Positions 16,597 to 20,641 of a DNA stretch of 51,279 nucleotides are shown here, in pieces. Made by a program: the position numbers and the translations under genes. Source of the stretch: Candidatus Magnetocorallium paracelense. GTDB taxonomy: Bacteria; Nitrospirota; Thermodesulfovibrionia; Thermodesulfovibrionales; Magnetobacteriaceae. The notes under the pieces are model-generated. The model did no database searches. It saw only the letters and a list, made by a program, of their open reading frames with translations, and had not been told where the DNA came from. The DNA lies in assembly GCA_029001845.1 (NCBI GenBank), contig JAREWP010000001.1, positions 1 through 51,279 on the forward strand, in the 5' to 3' direction. The stretch's first letter is position 1. Every line of letters begins with the position of its first letter.

Positions 16597-17133
16597 TCAG
16601 GGTGGCAAGTGTTTTGAGGCAAGCCTGAAGAACGCCTCTATCAGCTCTCTCCTCCATTTTAGTATTTCGCTAAAGAGGCGCACAAAATTTCTGTATGGAA
16701 CGGCAGGTCCCCTTTCCATATGTTCGAGAAGGGGAGTGCAGAAATACCAGTTACATCTAAATGGTCTGAGCTCACGCCTTCTGCGGCACCCCGTTTCAGA
16801 CAAGAACCCGCAGGGATCTGTATCTTTAAGACCCTCCCGATAAAGAGGAGGTCTCTGACCGAGCGAGAATATGTAGATTAAATCTTCGTAATCGTAGTAA
16901 CCGTGTCGGTTTATGCAGCAGACCTTCATACAGAGAGGGCACACTTCTGACGTATTGTCCTGAATAAAACCGTCGATTTCTCCGGTTTTTTCATATACTT
17001 TTGCAGCCGGGTTTACGACAACGGACAAATCGACTTCGCTGTTACTGAAGAAGCTCTCCAGCATATTTATCGCCAGGTTCCATTGCTCTCGGTTATGCCG
17101 GGAGAGCGTATCATTCAAAACCGATAGAGGCAT
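16597..17133 (-). CDS. YkgJ-type Cys-rich metal-binding protein
   Basis: 178 residues. The central region has CPLCMKVCC, then [11 protein letters not shown], then [10 protein letters not shown], the spaced cysteine pattern of the YkgJ/UPF0153 putative zinc- or iron-chelating family. No catalytic domain accompanies it. It lies 106 bases upstream of the chemoreceptor gene on the same strand. The metal and function are unknown. Confidence 0.75.
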
Positions 17134-17460: not shown

Positions 17461-17727
17461 ATGTCCGAAGATAACATGACAAAAGATGTTATTAATTTTC
17501 TTAATTTTATCAAATCTTCATTCTATGCAACTCTTGATAACATTTATGAGATACAGGAGTTGAGCGAAAAAGTGCTCACGGAAATGCTTAAAAAAGGTAA
17601 AGATGTCCACGACGATGCCGAAAAAACATTAAGCCAATTTCTCGATAACGCCAAAAAGGGTCGCGACGACTTTAAAAAAGTTATGGAAAAGGGGTTTGAA
17701 GATATAGAGGAAGTTTTTAAAAAATGA
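17461..17727 (+). CDS. phasin-like small helical protein
   Basis: 88 residues, all-helical and rich in Lys, Glu and Asp. A central [25 protein letters not shown] region resembles phasin/polyhydroxyalkanoate-granule-associated proteins (PhaF/PhaI-like), which are amphipathic and often hard to place by sequence. TAAGGAGG lies five bases before ATG. Its stop overlaps the trpB start (ATGA), so translation of the two is coupled. A granule role is an inference from composition. No PHA synthase is in the window, although an acetoacetyl-CoA synthetase occurs at 47569. Confidence 0.7.
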
Positions 17728-18920
17728 AAAGAGGCTATTTCGGAATATATGGAGGCAGATATGTGCCGGAGACGCTGATTCCCGCGCTCGATGAACTCGA
17801 TCGCGCCTATGAAAGCTCAAAAAGAGACAAAGCCTTTATGGAAGAACTAAAGTCTTTTCGCTCTACATACATAGGGAGACCGACGCCCCTCTATTTCGCC
17901 GGAAAACTGACCGCCAGACTGAAAGGCGCTAAAATATATCTGAAAAGGGAGGACCTTGCCCACACCGGGGCTCATAAAATAAATAATGCCGTAGGCCAGG
18001 CCCTTTTGGCTAAAAAGATGGGGAAAAAGAGACTAATAGCCGAGACGGGCGCCGGTCAACACGGCGTTGCTACAGCGACAGGTGCGGCACTTGCCGGCCT
18101 TAAATGCGAGATATACATGGGTTCCGAGGACATGGAGAGACAATCTCTGAACGTATTCAGAATGAAGCTGCTCGGTGCGAAGGTGACTGAAGTATCGATA
18201 GGTTCCAAAACACTTAAAGATGCAATAAATGAAGCTCTGAGAGACTGGACAACCAATGTGAGGACTACTCATTATGTATTGGGCACTGCTTTTGGTCCCC
18301 ATCCCTACCCATCCCTTGTAAAGAATTTTCAGTCAGTAATCGGTACCGAGGCCAAAAGACAGATTTTAAAGGCCGAGGGCAGACTCCCTGATTATTTAAT
18401 TGCCTGTGTAGGCGGAGGAAGCAATGCCATAGGGCTCTTTCACTCATTTTTGAATCATAAGCCCAAAGAAGAGGCGGAAAAAATAAAGATGATCGGAGTC
18501 GAAGGCGGAGGTCTGGGCCCTGAGACCGGAAAGCATGCTGCAAGGTTCGCAGGAGGATCGGTCGGGGTATTTCAGGGGTGCAAGAGCTATCTGCTGCAAG
18601 ATGACTCCGGCAATATACTGGGCACCCATTCCGTGTCCGCCGGTTTGGATTACGCTTCTGTCGGGCCTGAGCATGCCTTACTTCATGACATCGAACGGGT
18701 GGAATATACATATGCCAAAGATAACGATGTACTTGAGGCCTTTGAGCTTCTTTCAAAGACAGAGGGAATATTGCCTGCCTTGGAGTCGGCCCATGCAATC
18801 GCTTATGCGACAAAACTGGCGCCCCAACTGCCTGACGATAAAATAATGATAATAAATCTTTCCGGCAGGGGAGATAAAGATGTTCAGCATGTGGCTAAGA
18901 TAAAGGGCGTAAACCTGTAA
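17724..18920 (+). CDS. trpB: tryptophan synthase beta chain
   Basis: 398 residues, the usual length. It condenses indole with serine using PLP. Seen are [20 protein letters not shown] at the start, [16 protein letters not shown] with PLP-binding Lys85, [10 protein letters not shown], the phosphate-binding [10 protein letters not shown] loop and LSGRGDKD at the end, all hallmarks of the TrpB1 form. It overlaps the upstream phasin-like gene by four bases and is separated from trpA and other trp genes, none of which are in the window, so it would need an alpha subunit from elsewhere. Confidence 0.97.
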
Positions 18921-18941: not shown

Positions 18942-19838
18942 ATGAGCTTTGAGAATTTCATACAGGAAAAGGGGAAAGGTTTTCCCGCCAAAACATATAT
19001 CTTTGGTTACACTGACGATCTCTTTTGCACAGAGGCTTTAAATCTATTAAAAAGCACACTGGATAAAGACAACATCGCCTTTAATTTCGACATTCACGAT
19101 GCAGACGACTCGGAAAGACCCTTTATTGTCGGTAACCTTATCGATACGCTTAATACACACTCTCTTTTTGCAGAAAAGAGGCTTCTTGTCGTTAAAAACG
19201 TTCAGAAGCTGAAAAAGAAAGACTCCGAGGTTCTTAAGAGATATATTAATTCTCCCTCGCCTGATTCAATCCTCCTGCTCTTTTTTAAAGGAGATTTAAA
19301 GAAGCAGAAAAAAAATGCCTTCGATGGTGTCGCATTCATTGACCTTGATCTAAAGAAAAGCGAGATTCAGGAGTGGATTAAAGAGAGAGCTCAAAAAAAG
19401 GGATTAGTGCTGCAACGGGAAGTTGTCGGCCTTTTGGCCGACTTTTTCGGTGAAGACCTCTCCACCCTTAATAATGAATTGGAAAAACTCTCGCTTTACG
19501 GCAAATCCGAAATAACAGCGGACGATATGAATGCAATTCCCTACGGCTCAAAAACGTACAGCCCCTTTCAGTTAACAAAAGCGATTGTAAGTTCCGATAA
19601 GACGAGAGCGTTGAAAATATACAATACAGTAAGGGAGTCCGGCGAAACGGTTATGCTCTTGGGAGCAGTAAACTGGCAATTGTCTCAAATGGGAGCGGGG
19701 GACAAAGAGAAAGCTCTTGCCTTGCATAAATGTTTTGAGATGCTTCTTGAGACGGATGTGGTTTTGAAAACATCAGGTTATGATCCGTCTCTGGACAGGT
19801 TGATTCTTATGCTGCAGCGGATTTTAAGAAGAGGGTAG
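18942..19838 (+). CDS. holA: DNA polymerase III delta subunit
   Basis: 298 residues in the HolA family: an N-terminal AAA-like wall with YIFGYTDDLF, FNFDIHDADD and LFAEKRLLVVKNVQKLKKKD, a middle domain with LSTLNNELEKLSLY, and a C-terminal collar helix region. It is the clamp-loader wrench that opens the beta clamp. The gene starts 21 bases after trpB and may be in the same transcript. Its 3' end overlaps the convergent rpsT by 32 bases. Confidence 0.93.
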   Translation: MSFENFIQEKGKGFPAKTYIFGYTDDLFCTEALNLLKSTLDKDNIAFNFDIHDADDSERPFIVGNLIDTLNTHSLFAEKRLLVVKNVQKLKKKDSEVLKRYINSPSPDSILLLFFKGDLKKQKKNAFDGVAFIDLDLKKSEIQEWIKERAQKKGLVLQREVVGLLADFFGEDLSTLNNELEKLSLYGKSEITADDMNAIPYGSKTYSPFQLTKAIVSSDKTRALKIYNTVRESGETVMLLGAVNWQLSQMGAGDKEKALALHKCFEMLLETDVVLKTSGYDPSLDRLILMLQRILRRG

Positions 19839-20109
19839 TTTTCTTTGAGAGTCTTGAAATCTGTCGTGAAGTTGTTTTTCTATGGAGGATCCCCTTAGAA
19901 GAGGCTTTATCGAGCTCTCTTGTTACATCACGCAGGTATTTTACAGCATCCTCAGGGCCGTCGTTTTTTGTCAAAGCCTCTTCAAGCTTTTTGGTGAGAG
20001 TACTTATTTTACTTTTAACGGCTCTGTTTCTCATCCGTCTTTTTTTGCTTTGCCTGACTCGTTTTAAAACGGATATTCCTTTTTTCCGCTGTCTTTCCTC
20101 GGCTGCCAT
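19807..20109 (-). CDS. rpsT: 30S ribosomal protein S20
   Basis: 100 residues, highly basic. It has the S20 pattern: KRVRQSKKRRMRNRAVKS, then STLTKKLEEAL, then RELDKASSKGILHRKTTSRQ with ISRLSKK. It binds 16S rRNA early in 30S assembly. AAAGGAG lies ten bases before ATG 20109. Its convergence with holA is a common bacterial arrangement. Confidence 0.97.
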   Translation of the reverse strand: MAAEERQRKKGISVLKRVRQSKKRRMRNRAVKSKISTLTKKLEEALTKNDGPEDAVKYLRDVTRELDKASSKGILHRKTTSRQISRLSKKTTLFLKSAAA

Positions 20110-20142
20110 TTAGTTATAACTCCTTTGTACGATTATAAAGTA

Positions 20143-20319
20143 TTAAACTCTGTCACAGGATCTGCTTGAGATTGAATTCCAGGTATCACCGTTAACTTCA
20201 TTTATATATTCCGAAAGGTTATAATATCTGCCGCAATCCATGCAGCGCAGTATTACTGACTTTCACCTGATGAGTAAGTCGACTTTACCTGAGCAAAGTT
20301 TGCATTTCAGATTTTCCAT
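20143..20319 (-). CDS. candidate small selenoprotein with two CxxC motifs (in-frame TGA)
   Basis: A 58-codon frame from ATG 20319 to TAA 20143 is interrupted only by TGA at 20263-20265 (codon 19). Before it is MENLKCKLCSGKVDLLIR and after it RCMDCGRYYNLSEYINEV, ending SCDRV. The CxxC pairs at residues 6-9 and 26-29 form a zinc-ribbon-like knuckle pair. Eleven bases after the TGA starts a hairpin with SECIS-like geometry. From memory, NCBI names a family 'dual CXXC motif small (seleno)protein' that this would fit; this is unverified. It lies between tRNA-Asp and rpsT on the same strand. No good ribosome-binding site is visible. Alternatives are a pseudogene with an opal mutation or a sequencing error. 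Confidence 0.55.
20228..20250 (-). promoter_or_regulatory. SECIS-like hairpin downstream of the in-frame TGA
   Basis: In RNA sense, counting U of UGA as 1: positions 16-19 pair with 35-38, C21 pairs with G34, U22 is bulged, 23-25 (GCA) pair with 31-33 (UGC), and the apical loop is UGGAU. E. coli fdhF likewise has a bulged U, a short upper stem ending in GCA and a loop beginning with GG. The whole arrangement is shifted by five bases here. The loop lacks the fdhF GU pair of bases. Confidence 0.45.
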
Positions 20320-20359
20320 TGTTTAGAATTTACAACCTTATATTTATTTTGTCAATTTA

Positions 20360-20437
20360 TGGCGGGGTGGACGGGACTCGAACCCGCGACCTCCGGCGTG
20401 ACAGGCCGGCGTTCTAACCAAACTGAACTACCACCCC
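20360..20437 (-). tRNA. tRNA-Asp (anticodon GTC)
   Basis: The cloverleaf reads acceptor GGGGTGG/CCACCCC, D-arm GTTC/GAAC, anticodon stem CCGGC/GCCGG around the loop CTGTCAC (anticodon GTC), and T-arm CGGGTTCGAGTCCCG. Discriminator is G, and the 3' CCA is encoded at 20362-20360. It lies ten bases downstream of tRNA-Val and is probably co-transcribed with it. Confidence 0.95.
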
Positions 20438-20447
20438 GATATTTGTA

Positions 20448-20523
20448 TGGTAGGCGGAACAGGGCTTGAACCTGTGACCCCAGCCTTGTAAGGGCTGTGC
20501 TCTCCCAACTGAGCTATCCGCCC
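20448..20523 (-). tRNA. tRNA-Val (anticodon TAC)
   Basis: It starts GGGCGGATAGCTCAGTTGG, has the anticodon loop CTTACAA (TAC), T-arm CAGGTTCAAGCCCTG, and ends with encoded CCA at 20450-20448. The acceptor closes with a G1-U72 wobble. Confidence 0.95.
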
Positions 20524-20641
20524 ATTTTATAAAATCGGACATTGTAACTGCACCGGATTTCCCGTTTACAGCGCAGTAGATATTAAACAATACTTTGATA
20601 TGTTTTGTCAATAATAAAAAATAAAAAACTCATGAAGTCGG

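Follow-up and report, generated by a model that had tools for sequence, protein, structure and literature searches.

The minus-strand gene described here very probably encodes a functional selenoprotein of the NCBIfam family NF041197, as judged from its sequence and from that of its relatives. It lies in a stretch of 51,279 nucleotides from Candidatus Magnetocorallium paracelense (hereafter the window), and the protein is a further member of a family that is catalogued and predicted. NF041197 is the model CxxC_Se_CxxC, or "dual CXXC motif small (seleno)protein", and corresponds to OS_HP3. The 58-residue protein of the window scores 49.2 bits against it (E 4.4e-13), which exceeds the curated cut-off of 40, so that the family has to be regarded as already predicted; the model is also matched by all 61 family members scanned. 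The pattern of the model, two CxxC motifs with selenocysteine (Sec) or Cys between them, is present in the window's protein, and the comparison with NF041197, OS_HP3 or "hypothetical protein DW" reveals a like size, two CxxC knuckles and Sec or Cys in the corresponding position, with no essential difference, the window's member coming from the Nitrospirota family of Ca. Magnetominusculus. A review from 2026 lists the family as the predicted selenoprotein OS_HP3, also named hypothetical protein DW (PMC13188914), and the deep-Sep method missed OS_HP3 in Desulfosarcina widdelii, according to the paper on that method (PMC12013277). Two features are added to the catalogued family by the present analysis: roughly one member in three has an expression signal of the leaderless type, and the residue has changed repeatedly between Sec and Cys; in the literature searched, no description of leaderless-type promoters or of Sec/Cys changes was found for NF041197.

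The preliminary description gave no strand and reported a candidate selenoprotein, whose otherwise open frame is interrupted once, by TGA at codon 19, with one CxxC knuckle on each side of it. These features are all found on the minus strand, where 20319..20143 is translated as MENLKCKLCSGKVDLLIR[TGA]KSVILRCMDCGRYYNLSEYINEVNGDTWNSISSRSCDRV* with one in-frame TGA and with the knuckles at codons 6-9 and 26-29, while the plus-strand frame over 20143..20319 contains several stops. The start codon is fixed by an in-frame TAA located one codon 5' of the ATG. The selenoprotein reading is now supported by homologues, by the Sec machinery of the genome and by a hairpin that matches the published constraints on bacterial SECIS elements (bSECIS), and the features concerned are collected in Table 1.

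Table 1. Position of the selenoprotein gene, of its predicted elements and of the adjacent genes in the window
Feature	Position	Strand	Basis or remark
Predicted selenoprotein ORF, 58 aa, ATG to TAA, NF041197 family	20143..20319	(-)	
TGA predicted to be read as selenocysteine, codon 19	20263..20265	(-)	TGA or Cys codon in 69/69 loci read
First CxxC knuckle, codons 6-9	20293..20304	(-)	Both Cys columns invariant in two alignments
Second CxxC knuckle, codons 26-29	20233..20244	(-)	Overlaps SECIS upper stem and loop
Predicted SECIS hairpin including the lower stem, from folding of the window's sequence	20221..20256	(-)	RNAfold
Conserved predicted SECIS core, 6-bp stem GCUGCA/UGCGGC, loop UGGAU	20230..20246	(-)	Pairing and codon-choice bias
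Promoter-like TTGACA - 17 nt - TAAATT	20327..20355	(-)	-10 ends 7 nt before ATG, leaderless-type placement
tRNA-Asp (GTC)	20360..20437	(-)	Directly upstream of selenoprotein gene
tRNA-Val (TAC)	20448..20523	(-)	Upstream of tRNA-Asp
rpsT, ribosomal protein S20	19807..20109	(-)	33 nt downstream; PF01649, E 8.8e-22

An open frame containing a TGA of this kind goes beyond chance, because a homologue was found in 52 of 60 relatives and 47 of these have the TGA in frame. Within the phylum, homologues occur in 152 of 396 genomes (E at most 0.001), and among the matches listed, which come from 149 genomes, 143 contain one TGA and 6 no in-frame stop. The named relatives are all Nitrospirota, Ca. Magnetominusculus xianensis among them, and the viral contigs searched contained no relative of the selenoprotein. 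The homologues had been proposed as a check on codon 19, and a reading of 69 loci at the nucleotide level gave TGA at this position in 62 and Cys in 7, with nothing else. Furthermore, Cys 6, 9, 26 and 29 are invariant in the family alignments, and Tyr38, Glu41, Asp43, Trp47 and Arg53 are nearly so.

These data bear on an alternative that the preliminary description took seriously, an opal-mutated pseudogene, in which the TGA would have arisen recently by nonsense mutation in a dead gene, and on that of a sequencing error. Such a reading agrees with the lack of a Shine-Dalgarno sequence and with the six-frame profile scan of the genome, in which the window's copy reaches 39.1 bits, just under the cut-off of 40 and below most relatives. 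However, more than 140 genomes from across the phylum have TGA at the same codon, together with a conserved downstream protein in which Cys26, Cys29, Tyr38, Glu41, Trp47 and Arg53 vary little or not at all, and synonymous codon choice is constrained in the hairpin; this excludes a pseudogene for practical purposes, and both versions of the idea were rejected on the homologues. An equally improbable reading is that the TGA is translated as Trp, Arg or Gly, by way of a variant code or of near-cognate suppression, which would leave the frame open past the TGA just as observed. The position alternates only with Cys among the relatives, though, and the TGA is followed by a SECIS in a genome that has the complete Sec machinery, with selA and selB intact under the standard code, so that an alternative genetic code was rejected as well.

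The machinery had been named as a further check, and all four components, selA, selB, selD and tRNA-Sec, were found in the genome of the window with scores over the respective cut-offs (tRNA-Sec 74.6 bits, SelB 363 bits, SelA 613 bits, SelD 338 bits). The SelD gene of this genome (L048, G000:C50:17721-18650) contains one in-frame TGA, so that SelD is probably a selenoprotein itself. Among the 142 relatives whose TGA form is listed, tRNA-Sec was detected in 123 and SelA in 16 more, giving 139. The TGA-form genomes without a tRNA-Sec match number 19, and 3 of these, the draft assemblies G226, G334 and G357, have no SelA match either; since the search scores a limited number of tRNA-Sec candidates per genome, the 19 misses may be search losses. 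Two single-contig genomes (G283 and G322) possess SelA and a TGA-form copy and yield no tRNA-Sec over the threshold, owing either to a search loss or to a divergent tRNA-Sec. Neither tRNA-Sec nor SelA was matched in two Cys-form genomes (G007 and G206), which is what one would predict if Cys forms can dispense with the machinery.

The distribution of the two forms points to repeated replacement. The tree of 69 members, which is built on few columns and leaves its deep forks unresolved, needs four Sec/Cys changes, of which at least three are forced by well supported branches, and one Sec/Cys pair falls within a single genus (G200 with Sec, G057 with Cys). The likeliest direction of change would be from Sec to Cys, because the Sec forms are vastly commoner, exceeding the Cys forms in the phylum by about 24 to 1, with some four lineages changed to Cys. 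Changes from Sec to Cys in prokaryotes have been termed rare (PMC13188914).

The hairpin that follows the TGA agrees closely with its first description, which had it begin 12 nt after the TGA, with a bulge, a GCA/UGC upper stem and a loop having GG and lacking GU. A CTGC/GCAG stem does start at this distance, and folding of 48 nt with RNAfold gave -11.6 kcal/mol (z = -2.0, a modest score) for a structure with bulges, a GCA/UGC top and the loop UGGAU, which has GG in place of GU. The E. coli fdhF SECIS, which had served for comparison, shares with the window's element a hairpin soon after the UGA, the GCA/UGC upper stem and a GG loop, but its loop reads GGU instead of GGA and the proteins differ. 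The bSECIS model specifies a loop of 3-9 nt, an upper stem of 4-16 bp, a G among the first two loop positions, a distance of 16-37 nt from the UGA and a minimum free energy of at most -7.5 (PMC13188914). The window's hairpin, for which a comparison with such a model had been recommended, stays inside these published constraints, with a loop of 5 nt, a stem of 6 bp, a spacing of 22 nt between the UGA and the start of the loop and -9.4 to -11.6 kcal/mol. The G called for by the model is the second loop position, followed by another G, and any doubt over the GG loop is answered because the model allows GG. A search of the window with Rfam returned two tRNAs only and no SECIS family at a useful score.

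The structure is also shared by the relatives. For 56 TGA members, RNAalifold produced a common 6-bp stem GCUGCA/UGCGGC around UGGAU, and pairing in this stem holds in 98.2% of cells over the 56 sequences, compared with no more than 54% when the stem is slid along. Strict covariation is limited, most stem pairs varying on one side only. The strongest evidence for a SECIS comes from synonymous codon choice, which suggests that the bases of the hairpin are conserved beyond the needs of the protein. Thus, Arg25 is encoded by CGC in 43/43 TGA members, compared with 9/55 for Arg53 (p = 4e-19), Cys26 and Cys29 by TGC in 105/112 cases, compared with 93/159 for the remaining cysteines (p = 1e-11), and Gly30 by GGC in 40/47, compared with 34/74 (p = 2e-5), these p-values being only indicative because the sequences are related and not independent. 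In the few Cys forms compared, TGT occurs in 3/5 at both Cys codons (Cys26 and Cys29) and Arg25 is replaced in 5/5, and the codon constraint looks relaxed.

The preliminary description had remarked on the want of a good ribosome-binding site, and indeed no Shine-Dalgarno sequence is present at a usable distance. The promoter-like sequence that precedes the ATG has a perfect -35 hexamer (TTGACA) and a -10 hexamer (TAAATT) with 4/6 matches, and taken in the window alone it is not above shuffled expectation, about one such match being expected by chance in the stretch scanned. Across the family, 22/61 members have a -10 box with at least 5 of 6 matches whose end lies 5-9 nt 5' of the start codon, compared with 11/207 control genes, which were first-in-unit neighbouring genes (p = 7e-9); the control count becomes 13/207 if every in-frame ATG up to codon 30 is accepted as a start (p = 4e-8). 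Because a script chose the start codons, in members and controls alike, single cases may be wrong. The window's gene is left out of the 22 because its -10 hexamer matches at only 4 of 6 positions, although its arrangement agrees with that seen in the family. A Shine-Dalgarno-like sequence accompanies 1/22 of the -10-box members versus 24/39 of the others (p = 8e-6), and hexamers resembling -35 (at least 4 matches) occur upstream of the -10 boxes in 52%, a figure that includes the window, versus 23% after shuffling.

A -10 box ending 5-9 nt before the start codon places the start of transcription at this codon or a few bases from it. Leaderless mRNAs are suggested because the placement is enriched and is almost never combined with a Shine-Dalgarno sequence, and many family members, the window's one included, probably have such mRNAs. 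The missing ribosome-binding site would then be no defect and is probably better explained by a leaderless-type promoter. The fuller claim, that in many Nitrospirota a ribosome working without Shine-Dalgarno sequence on a leaderless mRNA meets the SECIS and the Sec UGA as early as codon 19, stands at even chances. It has a possible, if less favored, competitor in an mRNA co-transcribed with the upstream tRNAs and translated from AAGG, a ribosome-binding site that lies 16 nt upstream and would be weak or remote. The gene is immediately preceded on its strand by tRNA-Val and tRNA-Asp, no terminator-like site intervenes (none was found in the region searched, 20080-20560), and Shine-Dalgarno-like sequences are present in 25/61 relatives; the perfect TTGACA, the 17-nt spacer and the -10 ending 7 nt before the ATG argue the other way, as does the like -10 placement in 22 relatives, which is mutually exclusive with a Shine-Dalgarno sequence at the p = 8e-6 given above. 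In the literature searched, leaderless mRNA and selenocysteine were co-mentioned only incidentally, and no description of leaderless initiation combined with SECIS recoding was found.

tRNA-Val, tRNA-Asp, the selenoprotein gene and rpsT are closely spaced on a single strand (selenoprotein to tRNA-Val, 20143..20523 (-)), and a tRNA-mRNA co-transcript is possible at this locus. In the 60 neighbourhoods compared, rpsT is next downstream in 10, all in the taxonomic family of the window; others have a small Cys-rich protein, which we take to be YkgJ-like, and an NYN-domain-like gene downstream, and a downstream PurH-like gene and rplM-rpsI each occur in 5-6 loci. A conserved operon partner was thus rejected as a functional clue, the partners being lineage-specific, and no function was deduced from the context because no partner holds across the family. 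Elsewhere in the window, a Cys-rich protein of 178 aa (CPLCMKVCC ...; 16597..17133 (-)), with no Pfam match at E 0.01, resembles proteins encoded near the selenoprotein gene in several relatives. An ORF of 88 aa (17461..17727 (+)), with no convincing family match, lies immediately 5' of a PALP-family gene (17724..18920) that is probably trpB.

As for the protein, the four invariant Cys (6, 9, 26 and 29) have the layout of a zinc ribbon, with the two knuckles on a modelled beta-hairpin. The AlphaFold2 model, obtained with an alignment of 23 rows (mean pLDDT 76.7, pTM 0.56), consists of strands 12-17 and 22-26 and of a helix at 44-51, and residue 19 is assigned to the turn between the strands because these flank it. 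Matches to PDB structures are weak and ribbon-like (best Foldseek E 0.08, with none <0.001; best VIA Z 4.1); the best of them, non-significant all the same, are the N-terminal ribbon of RPB9/RPC11 and ZifS (TTHA0897), which likewise have two knuckles with a beta-hairpin between and which, to our knowledge, have no Sec at the hairpin tip. Profile similarity to the carrier protein LysW and to the zinc domain of HypA is confined to the knuckle region and is weak, well under the curated cut-offs. LysW has an acidic tail, which is absent here, the tail of the present family being of the type Cys-[Asp/Asn]-Arg-[Ala/Val]. The 61/61 members (L071-L130) end exactly three residues past position 55, and such an exact C-terminus suggests that the tail is functional.

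In the proposed mechanism, the ribosome would probably start at the ATG of an mRNA beginning at this codon or within a few bases of it, SelB with Sec-tRNA(Sec) would bind the hairpin just after the UGA, leading to selenocysteine at position 19, and readthrough, a step well supported by the sequence, would yield the full-length protein of 58 residues. In a ribbon-like fold, the four invariant Cys would most likely hold a single metal ion, probably zinc, and the model places Sec19 with moderate confidence at the tip of the beta-hairpin. Cys55 of the flexible tail may act as the resolving partner of the selenol in most members, but this role cannot be general, because Cys55 is present in 48/56 Sec members and replaced by Ser or Ala in 8/56. 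On this basis, we infer both the zinc binding and a redox role, and tentatively assign the reactivity to the exposed selenol, a small redox or thiol-exchange protein being the likeliest guess as to function.

The main rival is a carrier of metal or selenium, or a regulator of selenium metabolism, in which Sec would be a metal or selenium ligand and the protein no redox enzyme; we consider it rather unlikely. The family tracks the Sec trait, being present in 129/159 tRNA-Sec genomes of the phylum (about 80%), but this linkage is mostly automatic, since the gene needs Sec. Four invariant Cys together with Sec resemble a metal site, whereas the model has residue 19 at the hairpin turn between strands and Cys replaces Sec in about four lineages. 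The weak profile similarity to zinc ribbons, among them HypA and the carrier LysW, and the constrained tail, with all members ending three residues after position 55, are consistent with a carrier or regulator, but no neighbouring selenium genes were recognised in the 60 neighbourhoods.

Ordinary gene callers cut genes of this kind at the UGA, and such genes are missed. If the leaderless reading is true, SECIS recoding would be shown to take place soon after leaderless initiation. Among the homologues of selenoenzymes, Cys forms usually far outnumber Sec forms (PMC13188914); the present family, by contrast, is ~96% Sec in this phylum, which makes it well suited to the question of what selenium offers beyond sulfur, and the Sec and Cys forms found within one genus make this question directly testable.
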